From Candidatus Pyrohabitans jungbluthii (GTDB lineage: Archaea; Hydrothermarchaeota; Hydrothermarchaeia; Hydrothermarchaeales; BMS3B), in assembly GCA_002010065.2 (NCBI GenBank), contig MTMD02000015.1, positions 62,001 to 126,000 of the forward strand: a stretch of DNA of 64,000 nt, given 5' to 3'. Position numbers and translations under genes: made by a program. Below the pieces are notes generated by a model. That model saw nothing but the letters and a program-made list of their open reading frames with translations, was not told the origin of the DNA and ran no database searches. This document shows, one piece after another, positions 2,859 through 9,940 of this stretch (positions within the stretch are counted from its first letter, which is position 1; each line of letters begins with the position of its first letter).

Positions 2859-3072
2859 TATCTTGCAAATCAAAGCAAAACACAGGGTTTAGTTGTACGC
2901 AAAGTATCATACTAATCTTACAACTTTTTGTTGATAGGCAGGAGATTCTAAGTTTCTGCTTTCATTTCTTTTAATTCCATCTGCCTGTCAAGGAATTTAA
3001 TAATCGTATCCATACTAATTGAAAGTTATATTAGAGGTAAAGAGCCGTAATCTAATTTTCACTGCCGACGAT

Positions 3073-3084
3073 AAACTTAATATA
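3073..3084 (+). promoter_or_regulatory. Probable TATA-box promoter of the radical SAM/peptide cluster
   Basis: The AT-rich sequence AACTTAATATA lies about 38-45 bases before the ATG of the 39-aa peptide, as expected for an archaeal TATA box with initiation near 3105. The downstream genes run with overlaps or very short gaps to 9702, so this is the best candidate promoter for the whole cluster. Called by eye only. Confidence 0.4.
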
Positions 3085-3121
3085 GCTCAATAGCATTATC
3101 ACACTGTTAAAGAAAAATTTA

Positions 3122-3241
3122 ATGCGGGGTGCAAGAGTGGACAGGAAGGAGAGAAAGGATTGGAAGCTCACCATTGAAGATTTTGAGAAGGCTGCCTGCT
3201 ACCGTGACCACGGTGACTACCGCCCCATTGCGCCTCAGTAG
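3122..3241 (+). CDS. 39-residue peptide, candidate RiPP precursor
   Basis: ATG at 3122 opens a 39-codon frame ending TAG at 3239-3241, 18 bases before the radical SAM/PqqD gene. A GTG at 3137 would give 34 residues. The peptide has a basic start (VDRKERKDW), an amphipathic acidic stretch (KLTIEDFEKAA) and a C-terminal tail CYRDHGDYRPIAPQ with a single Cys, two Tyr and two Pro. A short peptide directly before a radical SAM/SPASM enzyme with an N-terminal PqqD-like (peptide-recognition) domain is the classic arrangement of a RiPP precursor, as in PQQ and mycofactocin pathways. The sequence matches no precursor family I know. Whether it is translated is inferred from position. Confidence 0.6.
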   Translation: MRGARVDRKERKDWKLTIEDFEKAACYRDHGDYRPIAPQ

Positions 3242-3259
3242 TATCCTGGTGCCGACGCA

Positions 3260-4570
3260 ATGGCTGCGCATGTGGTGAGAAGGAACCCCAACGTAGTTTA
3301 TCGCAGAGAAACCCGGGGTGGCACGGTAGAGGGTTTACTACTTTTTAACTATTCCACTCGTGGGATACATTTTCTTGAGGGTTTAGCAGCTAAGCTATGG
3401 GAAGTGTGCGAGGGGAAGAGCGCAGAGGAGATTGCGCATTCTCTAAAGCTGAGCAAAGCTGAGGTTGAGCGCTTTCTTGGGGAGCTTGAGGCTCGCAGGC
3501 TGGTGCGCTACAAAGGCGAGGGTAGCGAGGGTGACAACGAGGCTTTGAGCACCTCTGGCAAAGGAATGTGGAGCTCCCGGGTTTACTTCGATTCGCCAAT
3601 CTTTGTGCAATTCGACGTTACCAATGCCTGCAACCTGCGCTGCGCCCACTGCGTTACCTCCTCGGGTGAACCTCTGGAAAATGAGCTTTCAACGCAGGAG
3701 GCGCTCTCGTTGATTGATGAGCTTGCGTCGCTCGGGGTTTTCCAGATAGGCTTCTCCGGCGGAGAAGCGCTGCTACGCAGGGATATCTTCACGCTGATGG
3801 AGCACGCGAAAAAGCGAGGCATAAAGGTGCAGCTCACCACAAACGCAACGCTTATCAGCGAAGCTACAGCGAAGAAGCTGGTGAAGCTCGAGCCTATCAC
3901 CGTTGGGGTTAGCCTTGAAGGAGCAACAAAGCAGAGCTACGGAAGCTTTCGCGGCGAGGAGAACTTTGAGCGTGCCCTCTCCGGGGTACGCGCGCTCTTG
4001 CGCCACTCGCTGCCGGTGAAGCTGAAGGTCGCTGTTTCAAGGCGCAATCTTAGCGAGGTGGACGCAATTCTCAAGCTGGCGGTTGAGCTGGGCGTTGAGG
4101 CTGTGGATATGTTCCTACTCTATCCCGAGGGGAGAGCCAGGGGCATGAAGGACGAAGCCCTGAGCAGCACGGAAATTAAGGAGTTCTTAACCCTGCTTGC
4201 AAGGAGGCGCAGGGAGTACGAGGGAAAGCTTGCGATAGATGTGGACGACAAGCCCAACGCCTTTCTGGTTGACGCTTCTCTGGGTGCGAGCACCTGTGGC
4301 GCAGGCGCGTACTGGGCGGAGGTGCTGCCAAACGGAGATGTGGTGCCCTGCATTTTCCTGCGCAGTATGCGCGCTGGCAATGTGCGCGAGGCGAGCTTCA
4401 AGGAGATATGGCAGGGCAGCGTGTGGGAGCCTCTGCGCTCCCGTAGGCTAAAGGGGAGGTGCGGTGAGTGTGAGCACGCCTCTCGCTGCGGCGGGGGATG
4501 CAGGGCGAATGCGCTTTTACTGCTGGGCGACATAATGCAAGAGGATGCGCTGTGCTGGTACGGTGGTTAG
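3260..4570 (+). CDS. Radical SAM/SPASM enzyme with N-terminal PqqD-like peptide-recognition domain
   Basis: A 436-residue protein. Residues ~1-88 form a PqqD-like winged-helix (RRE) domain: FNYSTRGIHFLEG, then LWEVCEGKSAEEIA, then a helix with 'VERFLGELEARRLV'. A linker leads to the radical SAM core with C124-x3-C128-x2-C131 (CNLRCAHC) and the GGE motif 'SGGEALLR'. The C-terminal SPASM part has many Cys (CGAGAYWAEVLPNGDVVPC, then CGECEHASRCGGGC) for auxiliary Fe-S clusters. The enzyme is expected to install a crosslink or other modification on a peptide bound by the RRE. Heme-pathway AhbC/AhbD-like function is an alternative, but the adjacent 39-aa peptide favours RiPP maturation. Confidence 0.85.
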   Translation: MAAHVVRRNPNVVYRRETRGGTVEGLLLFNYSTRGIHFLEGLAAKLWEVCEGKSAEEIAHSLKLSKAEVERFLGELEARRLVRYKGEGSEGDNEALSTSGKGMWSSRVYFDSPIFVQFDVTNACNLRCAHCVTSSGEPLENELSTQEALSLIDELASLGVFQIGFSGGEALLRRDIFTLMEHAKKRGIKVQLTTNATLISEATAKKLVKLEPITVGVSLEGATKQSYGSFRGEENFERALSGVRALLRHSLPVKLKVAVSRRNLSEVDAILKLAVELGVEAVDMFLLYPEGRARGMKDEALSSTEIKEFLTLLARRRREYEGKLAIDVDDKPNAFLVDASLGASTCGAGAYWAEVLPNGDVVPCIFLRSMRAGNVREASFKEIWQGSVWEPLRSRRLKGRCGECEHASRCGGGCRANALLLLGDIMQEDALCWYGG

Positions 4571-5570
4571 GGTGAACGCCTCAGGGTTATACGCGGTGGA
4601 GATCAGGCTAACAAAAGCGTGCAACCTGCGCTGCGCTCATTGCTCCGTCGCCGGAGGGGAGGCGGCGCGGGATGAGCTGGGCACCTCTGAGATAAAGCAC
4701 GTGCTTGACCAGCTTGCAGAGCTTCGCGTTCCCTACGTCACCTTCACAGGGGGCGAGCCTCTGCTGCGCAGGGACGCGATAAAGCTCATCGCATATGCAT
4801 CTTCGCGGGGGCTGCGCCCAAACCTGGACACCAACGGCATGCTCATAAACCCTGCCAAAGCCAAGCGCCTTAAAGAGGTAGGCATTGATCTGGTGCAGGT
4901 GAGTATCGATGGCACAGAGGAGACCCACGAAAAGATACGCGGGCAGGGAAGCTATGCTGCGGCGATTCGTGGTGCCAGGGAGGTGGTCAGGGCAGGGATT
5001 CCACTGCACATCAACTTCACCCTATCCAAGCTCAACCTCTCCGACCTCGAAGCAGTGGTGGAAACCGCCTCTTCCTTGGGGGCGAGAAGCCTCAGCCTGG
5101 AGAGGTTCATCGCCATCGGCAGGGGAGGAGCTATCGCCGAGCAGGCGCTTAGCAGCGAGGAGTTTCGTGAGGCACTGCACAGGTTTTTCTCACTGGCTGA
5201 GCATACACAGGTAAAGCTTCTCACCACCGACCCGCTGCGCGTGCTCATAGATCGCAAGCTTATAGAGCGCTACCGCGAGGAGATGTCGCGAAGAGTTTGC
5301 GGTGGGTGCACCGCTGGCATTGCAGCGCTAACCATATCCTACGACGGTGAGGTGTACCCCTGTCCGAAGCTACCCCTAAGCGTAGGTAATGTTCGTGAGC
5401 AGAGCATCGCAGAGATATGGCAGGGCAATGAGACCCTAGCGGCGCTGCGCGCGCGGGAGTTTAAGGGCAGGTGCGGTGAATGTGAGCTGGTAAATCTGTG
5501 CGGTGGGTGCAGGGGCGAGGCATTCGCGAGGGGAGATTTTCTTGGCGAAGACACCATGTGCTGGAAGTGA
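4545..5570 (+). CDS. Second radical SAM/SPASM enzyme of the cluster
   Basis: A 341-residue protein with C26-x3-C30-x2-C33 (CNLRCAHC), 'TGGEPLLRR' and a C-terminal SPASM region (CGGCTAGIAALTISYDGEVYPCPKL, CGECELVNLCGGC, terminal CW). It lacks the PqqD-like domain of its upstream neighbour, to which its core is clearly related. It overlaps the upstream gene by 26 bases if ATG 4545 is used; GTG at 4572 is an alternative that begins closer to the core. Both genes probably came from duplication, with one keeping the substrate-recognition domain. Substrate unknown; peptide modification inferred. Confidence 0.85.
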   Translation: MRCAGTVVRVNASGLYAVEIRLTKACNLRCAHCSVAGGEAARDELGTSEIKHVLDQLAELRVPYVTFTGGEPLLRRDAIKLIAYASSRGLRPNLDTNGMLINPAKAKRLKEVGIDLVQVSIDGTEETHEKIRGQGSYAAAIRGAREVVRAGIPLHINFTLSKLNLSDLEAVVETASSLGARSLSLERFIAIGRGGAIAEQALSSEEFREALHRFFSLAEHTQVKLLTTDPLRVLIDRKLIERYREEMSRRVCGGCTAGIAALTISYDGEVYPCPKLPLSVGNVREQSIAEIWQGNETLAALRAREFKGRCGECELVNLCGGCRGEAFARGDFLGEDTMCWK

Positions 5571-5574
5571 TGGT

Positions 5575-6651
5575 ATGCGTGACGAGGAGCTTAAGGTTGA
5601 ACTTCTGTGCCGGGGAATGAAGGTTCCTGAGCAAGCGTGGAGCTACTACAAGCGGAGCGCGGGCTTTCCGATAAGGTTTGGGGATACGCTGGTAAGCGTG
5701 CCCTCCTTGGGCAAGTACGACCGCTACAGCTTCGTAGAAGCTTCGCCTTACAGCATAACGAGAAGCGACGGGAAGTGGCTGCTTCTTAAGGACGGGGAAG
5801 TGATTCGCGAAGTCGACGTAGCCGAGGTGCCCGGCTTTTACGAGAAGCTGAGCAGCGATGGCGTGGAGATGAAGCGCATATTCCAGGTTTGTGGCTGGGA
5901 CTGCGTGCTCACAGGCGTTGTTCAGAGCTGTGCCTACCAGAGGCGTGGCACCCAATGCAGGTTCTGTGGCACCATCTACAACCCTGCCTACGAGGGCAGG
6001 CTGGACAGGAAAACGCCTCAGCAGCTTGCTGAAGCCGCTGAAGCAGCGGTGGAGCACGGGATAAAGCATGCGGTTATAACCTCCGGCGTAATGCCCACCC
6101 CCGACAGGGGAGCGCGCCTCTTGCTGGAGGCTGCGAAGGCGATTAAGGAACGCGTGGATATCCCGCTTGAGGCTGAGCTCGCTCCGCCACAGGATTTGCG
6201 CTACTTGGAGCTTCTTTTAGAGCACGTGGACAGCGTGAGCATAAACATCGAAACTTTAGACCAGCGAGTGCGAGAGTACGCCTGTCCCGATAAATCCAAT
6301 ATACCCTACGAGGAATACTTCGCGGCGTATGAGCTCGCCCTCGAGGCTCTCGGCGAAAACCAAGTGAACTCCTGGCTCATCGCCGGTCTAGGGGAGAGTG
6401 ATGAGGCGATCATCGAAGGGGTTGAAGAGCTCGCTGAACGAGGCGTCTTCCCCTTCCTTGTGCCCCTCCGTCCCACAAAGGGCACGGGCTATGAGAACAC
6501 GCCGCCACCATCGCCGGAGAGGCTGAGCACGCTTGCCATGCAGGCTGCGGAGGTGGTTAAAGACTTCGGGCTGAAGCCAGAGAAGAACAAAGCCGGATGC
6601 ATGAGGTGCTCCGCGTGCTCACCCGTGAGGGACTTTCTGAAGCTGGTGTAG
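5575..6651 (+). CDS. Radical SAM protein with unusual C-x8-C-x2-C cluster motif
   Basis: A 358-residue protein starting at ATG 5575, four bases after the preceding stop. The cluster motif is SCAYQRRGTQCRFC, i.e. C-x8-C-x2-C rather than C-x3-C-x2-C. It is followed by 'ITSGVMPTPD', 'LEAELAPPQD' and 'SVSINIETLDQ', the features of a TIM-barrel family resembling the MSMEG_0568-type radical SAM proteins. The C-terminus carries 'KNKAGCMRCSACSP', a possible second Fe-S site. It is paralogous to the protein at 8635-9702. Four radical SAM enzymes in one cluster suggest a multi-step maturation. Function unknown. Confidence 0.75.
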   Translation: MRDEELKVELLCRGMKVPEQAWSYYKRSAGFPIRFGDTLVSVPSLGKYDRYSFVEASPYSITRSDGKWLLLKDGEVIREVDVAEVPGFYEKLSSDGVEMKRIFQVCGWDCVLTGVVQSCAYQRRGTQCRFCGTIYNPAYEGRLDRKTPQQLAEAAEAAVEHGIKHAVITSGVMPTPDRGARLLLEAAKAIKERVDIPLEAELAPPQDLRYLELLLEHVDSVSINIETLDQRVREYACPDKSNIPYEEYFAAYELALEALGENQVNSWLIAGLGESDEAIIEGVEELAERGVFPFLVPLRPTKGTGYENTPPPSPERLSTLAMQAAEVVKDFGLKPEKNKAGCMRCSACSPVRDFLKLV

Positions 6652-7313
6652 GGCTAAAGGAGAAGTGGAGGCGCGGCTACGAAGGGTTGGCTCAGCTTAT
6701 AGCACAGCATATTTACGGGCGCGTGCTTGAGGCGGGCGCTGGCAGAGGACAGCTCACTCAGGCGCTATTGCGCTACCACGAGAACCTCGTAGCCCTGGAT
6801 GCATCGCCGGGAGAGCTTTTTAAGCTTAAACAAAGCTGCCATGTTACGGCGGTGGCAGGAGCTTTTGAGGCGCTGCCCTTCGCGGCGGGGAGCTTCAACT
6901 GCGTGGTGAGCAACTTCACCGCGGGCTGGCTAAACGAGGAGCACTTGCTCAGAGCGCTTAAAGAGTTTAAACGGGTGCTCGCCAAAGGCGGCGTCGCGAT
7001 ACTCAGCGACTTTTACCCGGAGGCAAGGAGCAAGGCGGAAGAGGTGGCGCTGCTTCAGGGCTTGCCCGAGAACAACCTCTTGCCTTCGGAGAAGTGGTGG
7101 CATCCCGAGGAGATTGCAGCGCTTGCAGCGAAGGCTGGCTTTGAGGAGGAGAAGCTAGCCTTCTACGACTGGGGCATACGCTTCACCAGAGAGGAGGCGA
7201 TACTCCAGCTCACGCGGTGGCATGCTAAGCAGGAGTTCATAGGCCGCATAGACGCTCTGCTTTCAAGGCATGGCATGGCTCTTCCCCAAAGCTATGTGCT
7301 CATGCTGAGGTAG
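6597..7313 (+). CDS. Class I SAM-dependent methyltransferase
   Basis: A 238-residue protein. Motif I 'VLEAGAGRGQLTQAL' (residue ~43), 'LVALDASPGEL', 'GAFEALPFAAGSFNCVVSNFT' and 'LAKGGVAILSDF' define a UbiE/BioC-like Rossmann methyltransferase. With ATG 6597 it overlaps the preceding gene by 55 bases; in-frame GTG codons at 6606 and 6615 are other possible starts. Its place inside the radical SAM cluster suggests it methylates the product or an intermediate. The target cannot be read from sequence. Confidence 0.8.
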   Translation: MHEVLRVLTREGLSEAGVGLKEKWRRGYEGLAQLIAQHIYGRVLEAGAGRGQLTQALLRYHENLVALDASPGELFKLKQSCHVTAVAGAFEALPFAAGSFNCVVSNFTAGWLNEEHLLRALKEFKRVLAKGGVAILSDFYPEARSKAEEVALLQGLPENNLLPSEKWWHPEEIAALAAKAGFEEEKLAFYDWGIRFTREEAILQLTRWHAKQEFIGRIDALLSRHGMALPQSYVLMLR

Positions 7314-7317
7314 GGAT

Positions 7318-8106
7318 ATGAAGCTTCTCATCCTGGCTGGAGTGCATGGAGATGAGCCTGCTGCAGTGGAGGCAGCGAAGAGACTGGCGAGGCTTTTCCG
7401 GGACAGTGAAGAGGTTGAGGTGGTGCCGGAGGCTAACCCGGAGGCATGCTTTGCCGGCACCAGGCTGAGCCCCAGCGATGGCAGGGATTTAAACCGCTGC
7501 TTTCCAGGAAATGAAGAAGGGACGAGCACAGAGAGGCTTGCATTTAGGCTTTTTCAGAAGGTGCTTGAGGCTGAGGTTGTGGTGGACCTGCACACGCCCA
7601 GCATGGGCAGAGCGTACCTGCCCCACGCCAGGCTGCGCGTGGCCATGCCAAAGCTGAGAGAGCTGTGCTCCTATGCGGGCATGGACTATGCCACCCTTGA
7701 TGTACCTGAGCAGGGAATGCTCCAGGTGGAGGCTTCTCAGCGGGGGATACCTGTGCTCACCCTTGAGGCTGGAGAGGGAGGCAAAGCAGGCGAAGAAACG
7801 GTTAACGCTCTTGTGGAAGCGGTGCTGGGAGTGGCGCGAAGTCTGGGCGTAGCAGAAGGCGAGGCTGCTCGCGGAGAGGTGCGCTTTGTGAAGCGGGAGC
7901 GGATTCTGAGCGATGCCTCGGGTAAGCTTAAGATGAAGGTGGCGCTAGGCGATGAGGTGAGGCTGGGCACCATAGTTGCGAAGGTTGGAAAGACAAGAAT
8001 AAAGTCCCACGTGAATGGCATTGTTCTGGGTGTGAGTTCTCAGGAGTACGTGGAGGAGAATGAGTTTGTCGCCAGCATAGGCGTGGAGGTTCAGCATGAA
8101 TTATGA
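7318..8106 (+). CDS. Zinc deacylase/peptidase of the succinylglutamate desuccinylase-aspartoacylase (M14-like) family
   Basis: A 262-residue protein. Zinc ligands are visible as HGDE in 'GVHGDEP' (residue ~9) and His in 'VVDLHTP' (~88). 'GRDLNRCFPG' is the substrate-binding block and 'LTLEAGEG' provides the probable catalytic Glu (~145). A C-terminal ~70-residue barrel-sandwich part ('KVALGDEVRLGTIVAKVG') is typical of the AstE/AspA clan. Members hydrolyse N-acyl amino acids or C-terminal residues. In this cluster it could trim a modified peptide. It starts 4 bases after the methyltransferase and overlaps the TPR gene by 11 bases. Confidence 0.8.
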   Translation: MKLLILAGVHGDEPAAVEAAKRLARLFRDSEEVEVVPEANPEACFAGTRLSPSDGRDLNRCFPGNEEGTSTERLAFRLFQKVLEAEVVVDLHTPSMGRAYLPHARLRVAMPKLRELCSYAGMDYATLDVPEQGMLQVEASQRGIPVLTLEAGEGGKAGEETVNALVEAVLGVARSLGVAEGEAARGEVRFVKRERILSDASGKLKMKVALGDEVRLGTIVAKVGKTRIKSHVNGIVLGVSSQEYVEENEFVASIGVEVQHEL

Positions 8107-8638
8107 GGAATGCTATGAGCTTATAAAGCGCGCTCGCTACCGCGATGCAATCTCTTGCTTAGAACGCCTGCTCAGCGCCAACCCGCGCGACGACCGCGCG
8201 TGGGTTACCAAGGCGGGGGCGCACCGTGCCATAGGCGAATACCACGAGGCTTTGAGCTGCTACGACGAGGCGATTAAGCTCAACCCGAGCAACGACGACG
8301 CGTGGTACTTCCGCGGCAAGCTCTTCGCCAGATGGAGTGAGCACGCTGAGGCTGAGCGCTGCTTTGCCGAGGTGCTGAAGCTCAACCCGCGCGATGAGTA
8401 CGCATGGATAGGCAGAGGAAAGGCGCTTAAAGGTTTAGCCCGCTACGAGGAGGCGCTGCGCTGCCTGGACAAAGCTATTGAGATTAACCAGCGCAACGAG
8501 GACTCGTGGATGCTTAAGGCGGAGGTGCTGCTGAAGCTGGGGAAGCGCGACGCTGCCATCGCCTGCCTCAAGCGCGTGCTGGAAATTAACCCCAGAAACG
8601 AGGACGCGAAGGATAAGCTGGAGAGGATAAGGGAATGA
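8096..8638 (+). CDS. Tetratricopeptide-repeat protein
   Basis: A 180-residue protein made almost wholly of about five TPR units of 34 residues, seen as recurring 'ALSCYDEAIKLNPSNDDAWYFRGK' type segments with W-L-G-Y-A-P positions. TPRs mediate protein-protein contacts. The gene overlaps both neighbours (11 bases upstream, 4 downstream), so it is translated with the radical SAM genes and may scaffold the enzymes. No catalytic residues are evident. Confidence 0.88.
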   Translation: MNYEECYELIKRARYRDAISCLERLLSANPRDDRAWVTKAGAHRAIGEYHEALSCYDEAIKLNPSNDDAWYFRGKLFARWSEHAEAERCFAEVLKLNPRDEYAWIGRGKALKGLARYEEALRCLDKAIEINQRNEDSWMLKAEVLLKLGKRDAAIACLKRVLEINPRNEDAKDKLERIRE

Positions 8639-9702
8639 CGCTGAGCGTTGCTGACAAGAAGATACTTATCCAGAGCAAGGGGCTGAGAATCCCCTGGGAA
8701 GTGGAAAAAGAGCTAGCACAGCGCTTCGCGGGCGTTGAGAGCGACTATCCCAGCTTCTTCCTCGAGGGCAGCACACCTGTGGGTCTGCTCAACGGCTTCT
8801 ACACTGAAGCCTCGCCCTTTGAGCTTCGCAGGCATTGCAAGGGGTATGCGATTTTTTGCGACGACGAACCCTTCGCAGAGGTGAGCTTTCTACCTCGCAC
8901 CCCCTTCCTCGACAGGCGCACCTCTCGAGGCATAGCAATGAGGCGCATTGTTAAGATGGTTGCCCCCGGGTTTCCGATAATCTACCTTAACACGGGATGC
9001 ATGTACTGGGGGGAGAAGCAGTGCAAGTTCTGCGTGGTGGGGCACATAGACACAGAGAAGTTTAAGAACCCAGAGGATGTGGCTGAAACCGTCGAAGCTG
9101 GAGTCAAAGACGGTGGTATAAAAACCCACGTGGCGCTCACCAGTGGGGCTTTGCCCAAGGATAAGGCGATTGACCTGCTCGCAGCCACTGTAAAGGCGAT
9201 TAAAGAGCGCGTAGATATACCGGTTTCCGTTAATCTTGAGCCTCCAAGGGATTTGGGCAAGCTTGAGATGCTTGCTGATGCTGACTCTATATACCTGAAC
9301 ATGGAAGTCTACGACCCTGCCGCAAGGAAGCGCTTTCTCCCGGGCAAGAGCGAATTCTCGCCTGAGTACTACTTCAGAGCCTTTAAAGCATGCCTCGATA
9401 TATTCGAGGAGAACCAGGTATGCTCTGTGCTGCTCGCTGGCCTAGAGAGCGACGAGAGCTATCTGCGCGGCGTTGAAGCCCTCGCCGAGCGTGGCGTGCT
9501 CCCCGTAACCACGCCCTTCTACCCAGCGCTCCTCTCAAAGCTAGCGGACGAGAAGCCGCCCTCCGCCGAGAGGATGCGCCGCATATACGAGCGCAGCGTG
9601 GAGATAATCCGCGCCTATGGTTTGGACCCCTTCAAGACAAAAGCAGGTTTTATGCGCGGCGGCGCAATCTTCGCCCTCAAGGAGGTTTGGAAGGAGATGT
9701 AA
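8635..9702 (+). CDS. Radical SAM protein with C-x7-C-x2-C motif, paralogue of the 5575-6651 protein
   Basis: A 355-residue protein. The cluster motif TGCMYWGEKQCKFC reads C-x7-C-x2-C. Later blocks 'ALTSGALPKD', 'VSVNLEPPRDLGKLEML', 'SIYLNMEVYD' and 'KTKAGFMRGGA' align with 'ITSGVMPTPD', 'LEAELAPPQDLRYLELL', 'SVSINIETLD' and 'KNKAGCMRCSA' of the paralogue at 5575. It lacks the C-terminal CxxCxxC of that paralogue. It overlaps the TPR gene by 4 bases and ends the cluster; about 240 non-coding bases follow. Substrate unknown. Confidence 0.75.
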   Translation: MTLSVADKKILIQSKGLRIPWEVEKELAQRFAGVESDYPSFFLEGSTPVGLLNGFYTEASPFELRRHCKGYAIFCDDEPFAEVSFLPRTPFLDRRTSRGIAMRRIVKMVAPGFPIIYLNTGCMYWGEKQCKFCVVGHIDTEKFKNPEDVAETVEAGVKDGGIKTHVALTSGALPKDKAIDLLAATVKAIKERVDIPVSVNLEPPRDLGKLEMLADADSIYLNMEVYDPAARKRFLPGKSEFSPEYYFRAFKACLDIFEENQVCSVLLAGLESDESYLRGVEALAERGVLPVTTPFYPALLSKLADEKPPSAERMRRIYERSVEIIRAYGLDPFKTKAGFMRGGAIFALKEVWKEM

Positions 9703-9883
9703 AAGGGCTATCCAAATTATCCTTATTATCCTTAATATATATGACCAGCCAGAACATTTCAATGATGCTGCTATATAGGCCTACCAAACCCAAAATCTCC
9801 CGCAAGTCTAGTTTCCTCATTATTATGTGATATGAGGGTACTAAATTATTCAGTAATACCCCAAACAATACAAGGGGAGCGAT

Positions 9884-9897
9884 AAACTATATATATG
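9884..9897 (+). promoter_or_regulatory. TATA-box promoter of the DUF515/CpaB-like gene
   Basis: AAACTATATATATG lies 44-57 bases before the ATG at 9941, matching an archaeal TATA box. It marks a new transcription unit after the radical SAM cluster. Called by eye. Confidence 0.5.
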
Positions 9898-9940
9898 CAG
9901 AATTTTTAAGGAGATAATTACCAATCCCGGAGACCAGATT

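Follow-up and report, generated by a model that had tools for sequence, protein, structure and literature searches.

An archaeal operon with several radical SAM enzymes that may modify a short, conserved ribosomal peptide

The window, i.e., the whole stretch of 64,000 nucleotides analyzed from Candidatus Pyrohabitans jungbluthii (contig MTMD02000015.1, positions 62,001 to 126,000), harbours eight tightly packed frames on the plus strand at 3122–9702: a gene for a short peptide followed by genes A to G. Neighbouring frames overlap or are separated by 4–18 nt (peptide–A gap 18 nt, A/B overlap 26 nt, B–C gap 4 nt, D–E gap 4 nt, E/F overlap 11 nt, F/G overlap 4 nt), in agreement with the closely packed set of eight genes on one strand proposed in the initial annotation of this region. 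The open frames of C and D overlap by up to 55 nt; the start of C is likely ATG 5575, and the true start of D may lie farther downstream than the start of its open frame. A block of approximately 80 bp directly preceding the peptide gene (3040–3121, plus strand), including an AT-rich TATA-like stretch, is alignable among three members of the genus and probably represents the promoter region of the operon; the sequence farther upstream diverges.

The precursor-like peptide MRGARVDRKERKDWKLTIEDFEKAACYRDHGDYRPIAPQ (3122–3241, plus strand) comprises 39 codons from ATG. Its start may instead be GTG 3137, a codon preceded by GGGGTG (Shine-Dalgarno-like); this would yield 34 amino acids, a length that fits the 32-residue homologue better. 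The peptide is the same in three species of the genus, i.e., in the window genome (G000) and in G001 and G004. The peptide genes of G000 and G004 differ by 8 synonymous (all in third positions) and 0 nonsynonymous changes at about 93 nonsynonymous sites (dN = 0, dS 0.45), as compared to dN values of 0.06–0.19 for the other operon genes in the same comparison. In G014, which belongs to another family, only 1 of the 22 residues of the block WKL[TS]IEDFEKAACYRDHGDYRP differs, where A is only 59 % identical. The core CYRDHGDYRP is invariant, containing one Cys and two Tyr, each of the latter directly followed by Arg. By these measures, purifying selection on the peptide is strong; its absence from the 39-codon frame had initially been named as a reason for doubt. 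The conservation within the genus and across families represents the strongest evidence that the frame did not arise by chance but is a real gene and encodes a substrate. The possibility that read-through fuses the peptide to A was considered and rejected: the two frames share a phase in three genomes (G000, G004 and G014), but in G001 the 17 nt separating them put them out of phase, so that the agreement is a coincidence.

G001 and G004 both retain the order peptide-A-B-C-D-E-F-G; in G004, a small insertion separates E from F. G014 possesses peptide-A-B-C-D-F-G, with E missing from the operon. This conservation of gene order in four species (loci L031, L032 and L033 besides the window) indicates more than a chance arrangement, dispelling the concern that the neighbourhood might not be conserved. 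The least conserved product of the set is D (73 % identity in G004, i.e., 27 % of residues differing, and 42 % in G014). The operon contig of G014 breaks off within G; it shares an overlap of 183 bp (98.4 %) with a second contig, on which G is followed by genes for a winged-helix protein (AsnC-type HTH) and an AAA ATPase; contig overlap and the tree of G suggest that the operon copy of G probably continues into this regulator-bearing contig.

The peptide core pattern was found in 4 of the 23 genomes of the class, with two members of the genus lacking it, and full-length A in 4 of 394 sampled archaea, namely the same four genomes; no genome was found to carry the peptide without gene A. When about 85,000 species were scanned with leader-region patterns, no further peptide systems came to light, those with different leaders being liable to escape such a scan, and no relatives were found on viral contigs. 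The peptide evidence comes from four genomes only, mostly draft metagenome assemblies of a few hydrothermal-vent and related archaea. The nearest named peptide-bearing records are Candidatus Pyrohabitans sp. JdFR-17, Candidatus Hydrothermarchaeota MAG S141_67 (both of the same genus as the window genome) and Euryarchaeota MAG J060.

Gene A (3260–4570, plus strand) encodes a putative N-terminal PqqD-like domain (RiPP recognition element) fused to radical SAM and SPASM domains, as judged from Pfam, cysteine motifs and a structural model with Foldseek matches, and B (4545–5570, plus strand) a radical SAM/SPASM protein without PqqD-like domain (Pfam/NCBIfam, own clade). Both proteins match PF04055 and PF13186 and contain CX3CX2C according to the motif script. 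The auxiliary-cluster cysteines that, together with CX3CX2C, mark SPASM maturases are complete in A (C-x12-G-x4-C, CX2CX5CX3C, last C432) and present in B as the variant CX2CX5CX2C. A complete SPASM set including CX2CX5CX3C has been linked to peptide modification (Haft 2011, PMC3023750). The PqqD domain initially annotated in A stays below threshold in the window protein (PF05402, 19.1 bits vs. a cut-off of 23.4), but PF05402 is seen in the A orthologues (4 of 4), and model and Foldseek agree with its presence. The model of A (mean pLDDT 70, pTM 0.71) displays an N-terminal three-stranded sheet plus helices, and its nine top-ranking PDB matches are all chains of SuiB, SkfB, PqqE (6c8v) and CteB (5why and 5wgg). 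When peptide and A were modelled jointly via the in-phase read-through, the peptide was disordered and did not dock, residues 1–48 having a pLDDT <50 with a shallow alignment.

Among the NCBIfam models, A scores best with NirJ2 (230 bits) and B with AhbD (251 bits), in both cases about half of the cut-off of 500 bits. Likewise, A and B remain below the equivalog cut-offs for MftC (265 bits; A 189.2, B 167.1) and PqqE (381.35 bits; A 134.5, B 141.3). In a 58-row tree with arbitrary root and several long-branched rows, for which reason it was used solely for exclusion from the AhbD and AhbC clades, A and B each fall into a supported clade of their own, outside the AhbD and AhbC/NirJ-like clades. 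A separate AhbD-like protein is encoded elsewhere in the window genome (463.5 bits, just under the cut-off of 500). Neither score nor clade placement thus assigns A or B to AhbC, AhbD or NirJ, a grouping which the initial annotation had named as counter-evidence, and a role in heme biosynthesis was rejected on the basis of scores, tree and the separate gene. Long SPASM proteins with N-terminal extensions from G005, G012, G021 and G029 (loci L112, L111, L113 and L054) form yet another clade and possibly belong to further peptide-related systems; the PqqD-SPASM-like genes of these four genomes have no neighbourhood in common with the present operon.

The heme-pathway models (NirJ2, AhbD) as best matches of A and B, together with a distant resemblance of C and G to lipoyl synthases, could be taken to mean that the short frame encodes a regulatory or structural small protein and that the substrate of the SPASM enzymes is a different one, such as a tetrapyrrole or some other protein. 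We regard this as very improbable, since the matches are far under the cut-off, A and B occupy separate clades next to a dedicated AhbD-like gene elsewhere in the genome, and the peptide gene is always found immediately upstream of the PqqD-like fusion gene. Such a short conserved precursor gene adjoining modifying enzymes is the arrangement expected for RiPPs and other peptide-derived products.

Genes C (5575–6651) and G (8635–9702), both on the plus strand, encode paralogous radical SAM proteins as determined by NCBIfam and motifs, supplemented for C by model and fold comparison. The motif script verified the initially annotated spacings CX8CX2C for C and CX7CX2C for G; C contains additional cysteines and a C-terminal CX2CX2C (CMRCSAC), G has no C-terminal cysteines. 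Both exceed the cut-off of NF045502 (125 bits; C 185.3, G 182.1) and remain below that of the MSMEG_0568 model TIGR04043 (303.7 bits; C 262, G 170), C being close to this family; no Nit1C nitrilase genes were found near the operon. A 14-row tree places C and G as sister groups within this order. Since C keeps the extra cysteines and a C-terminal AGC-x2-C-x2-C, the latter shared with an MSMEG_0568 protein of Agrobacterium, and G has lost them, an auxiliary cluster may be present in C and is probably absent from G. The model of C is closest in fold to lipoyl and biotin synthases, weakly so (TM <0.5 over the query); an assignment of C and G as lipoyl synthases, for which only weak scores were obtained, was discarded.

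Orthologues of G (56–57 % identity) are present without A, B or peptide in G012 and G017, where they are located between genes for an NMT1-like ABC transporter and a winged-helix regulator (L039 6128–9819 and L038 345–2921). Nearby genes in G012 encode a small PqqD protein and also a radical SAM enzyme of the B12 type. C-type genes are widespread in other contexts; some lie within the Nit1C cluster or adjoin homocysteine-biosynthesis genes. A, B or peptide were not found beside the C homologues of G132, G097, G077, G110 and G113. Because G-type enzymes stand alone in relatives, the peptide may not be a direct substrate of C and G. One could envisage that A and B modify the peptide, and that a separate small molecule, made by C and G together with D and E, is either joined to the peptide or only has its genes in the same operon. 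The probable continuation of the G014 copy of G into the winged-helix regulator would fit such a division. We rate it as possible but rather doubtful, given that C, D, F and G are co-located with the peptide in two families and that C was not found in close relatives of the genus and family lacking the peptide. As to other C-type radical SAM genes, those of another archaeal family (L153 2739–6515, L154 163–4984) are close to HcyBio and NIL-ferredoxin genes, hinting, as a lead only, at sulfur chemistry or metabolism for the C-type family; in G018 and G014 (L036 2438–5244 and L034 4605–7493), a C-type gene adjoins genes for a TiaS-domain protein and an MtxX-like (PTA_PTB-related) protein.

The remaining genes, all on the plus strand, encode, based on profile matches, a class I SAM methyltransferase (D, 6597–7313, Methyltransf_11), an AstE/AspA-type zinc hydrolase (E, 7318–8106) and, based on Pfam and synteny, a TPR protein as possible scaffold (F, 8096–8638). 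Assignment of E rests on the match to PF24827 (106 bits vs. a family cut-off of 25; 2e-30), its relative PDB 3cdx and the positions of the motifs HGDE, DLNRCFP, DLH and LTLEAG, so that the expected HGDE, NR, DLH and LEAG are all present. Within the class, the E family occurs only in the four peptide-bearing genomes (0 of the 19 others), the copy of G014 being distant (34 %) and located elsewhere in the genome. In G001 and G004, a multiheme cytochrome gene directly follows G (L031 10006–11166 and L032 11040–12158); it is absent from the window at 9703–9940, where about 1.1–1.2 kb are missing relative to G001. The cytochrome was dismissed as client of the product, since relatives occur in 13 of the 23 genomes irrespective of the peptide and it is absent here in G000.

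No transporter or immunity genes were seen in the operon, as judged from gene calls and Pfam including the syntenic loci. This bears on the fused PqqD-like/SPASM architecture, which is shared with sactipeptide and streptide maturases and may indicate a secreted RiPP (antimicrobial or signalling peptide). Such a product is unlikely: besides an exporter and an immunity gene, a leader-protease transporter is lacking in the operon, and the core is identical or nearly so across two families, contrary to the arms-race pattern of bacteriocins (PMC3023750). Following the same reasoning (PMC3023750), the lack of exporter and immunity genes and the invariant core favour an intracellular, cofactor-like product over a bacteriocin.

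We consider it likely that the short peptide serves as ribosomal precursor of a modified small molecule made by the operon, with A binding the peptide, A and B modifying the core and the other enzymes tailoring the product, which would be cofactor-like. In this scheme, of which we infer every reaction as well as peptide binding by A and the cofactor role, the PqqD-like domain of A would bind the conserved N-terminal half WKL[TS]IEDFEKAA, and A and probably B would introduce radical crosslinks or oxidations into the CYRDHGDYRP core. C and G could carry out additional radical steps, either on the peptide intermediate or on some partner molecule, D would methylate, E would hydrolyse an amide bond, thereby releasing or trimming the product, and F could serve as scaffold. 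Known products of SPASM enzymes include carbon-carbon bonds between Glu and Tyr (PqqE) and between Arg and Tyr (RRR) (PMC8326336); the core offers two Tyr-Arg pairs and one Cys. The product would most likely function inside the cell in a cofactor-like manner, as do PQQ and mycofactocin. Synteny, selection on the peptide and the clade placement of A and B speak for the initially annotated single modified peptide or peptide-derived cofactor. The sub-threshold PqqD match, the undocked peptide, stand-alone G, the occurrence of C elsewhere and the absence of E from the G014 operon weigh against this explanation, and against the cofactor reading in particular weighs that client enzymes, to be expected of a cofactor, were not identified. 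It is possible, though less likely than not, that the operon makes a previously unknown archaeal cofactor of ribosomal origin, in which case as many as four radical SAM enzymes, from two different families, would build it from the CYRDHGDYRP core.

Several known systems share parts of this inventory. The AhbC/AhbD/NirJ models are top-scoring for A and B, but at about half of their cut-off and with separate clades. C and G share with NF045502, including MSMEG_0568 of the Nit1C cluster, scores above the family cut-off and, in case of C, the C-terminal AGC-x2-C-x2-C, but differ by scores under the MSMEG_0568 cut-off and the lack of nearby Nit1C nitrilase genes. The streptide maturase SuiB and the sactipeptide/ranthipeptide maturases SkfB and CteB provide the best structural matches of the A model, but belong to simple exported-peptide systems and have low identity to A (17–21 % in the structural alignment). 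PQQ and mycofactocin are two well-established redox cofactors which bacteria derive from ribosomal peptides. PQQ biosynthesis (PqqA, PqqD, PqqE) likewise involves a Tyr-bearing precursor, a PqqD-like recognition domain (putative in the present operon) and a SPASM enzyme; the present operon differs by more radical SAM enzymes and the absence of PqqB-, PqqC- or PqqF-like genes.

Mycofactocin formation involves the peptide MftA, the PqqD-like MftB, the SPASM enzyme MftC and the creatininase-type hydrolase MftE (Haft 2011, PMC3023750). Common to both systems are a short peptide with near-invariant core, a small protein or (here putative) domain for peptide binding, a SPASM enzyme, a metallohydrolase and the lack of an exporter, and the near-invariant core parallels the argument made for mycofactocin (PMC3023750). 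In contrast, the putative recognition domain is here fused to the SPASM enzyme, the hydrolase is of the AstE/AspA rather than the creatininase type, the peptide is unrelated, and a second SPASM enzyme, two variant radical SAM enzymes and a methyltransferase are added. Mycofactocin was first predicted from the same kind of evidence (PMC3023750), and the short, fixed precursor renders the present prediction directly testable. If it holds true, the class of peptide-derived cofactors would gain an archaeal member in which the peptide is unrelated and two variant radical SAM enzymes take part.
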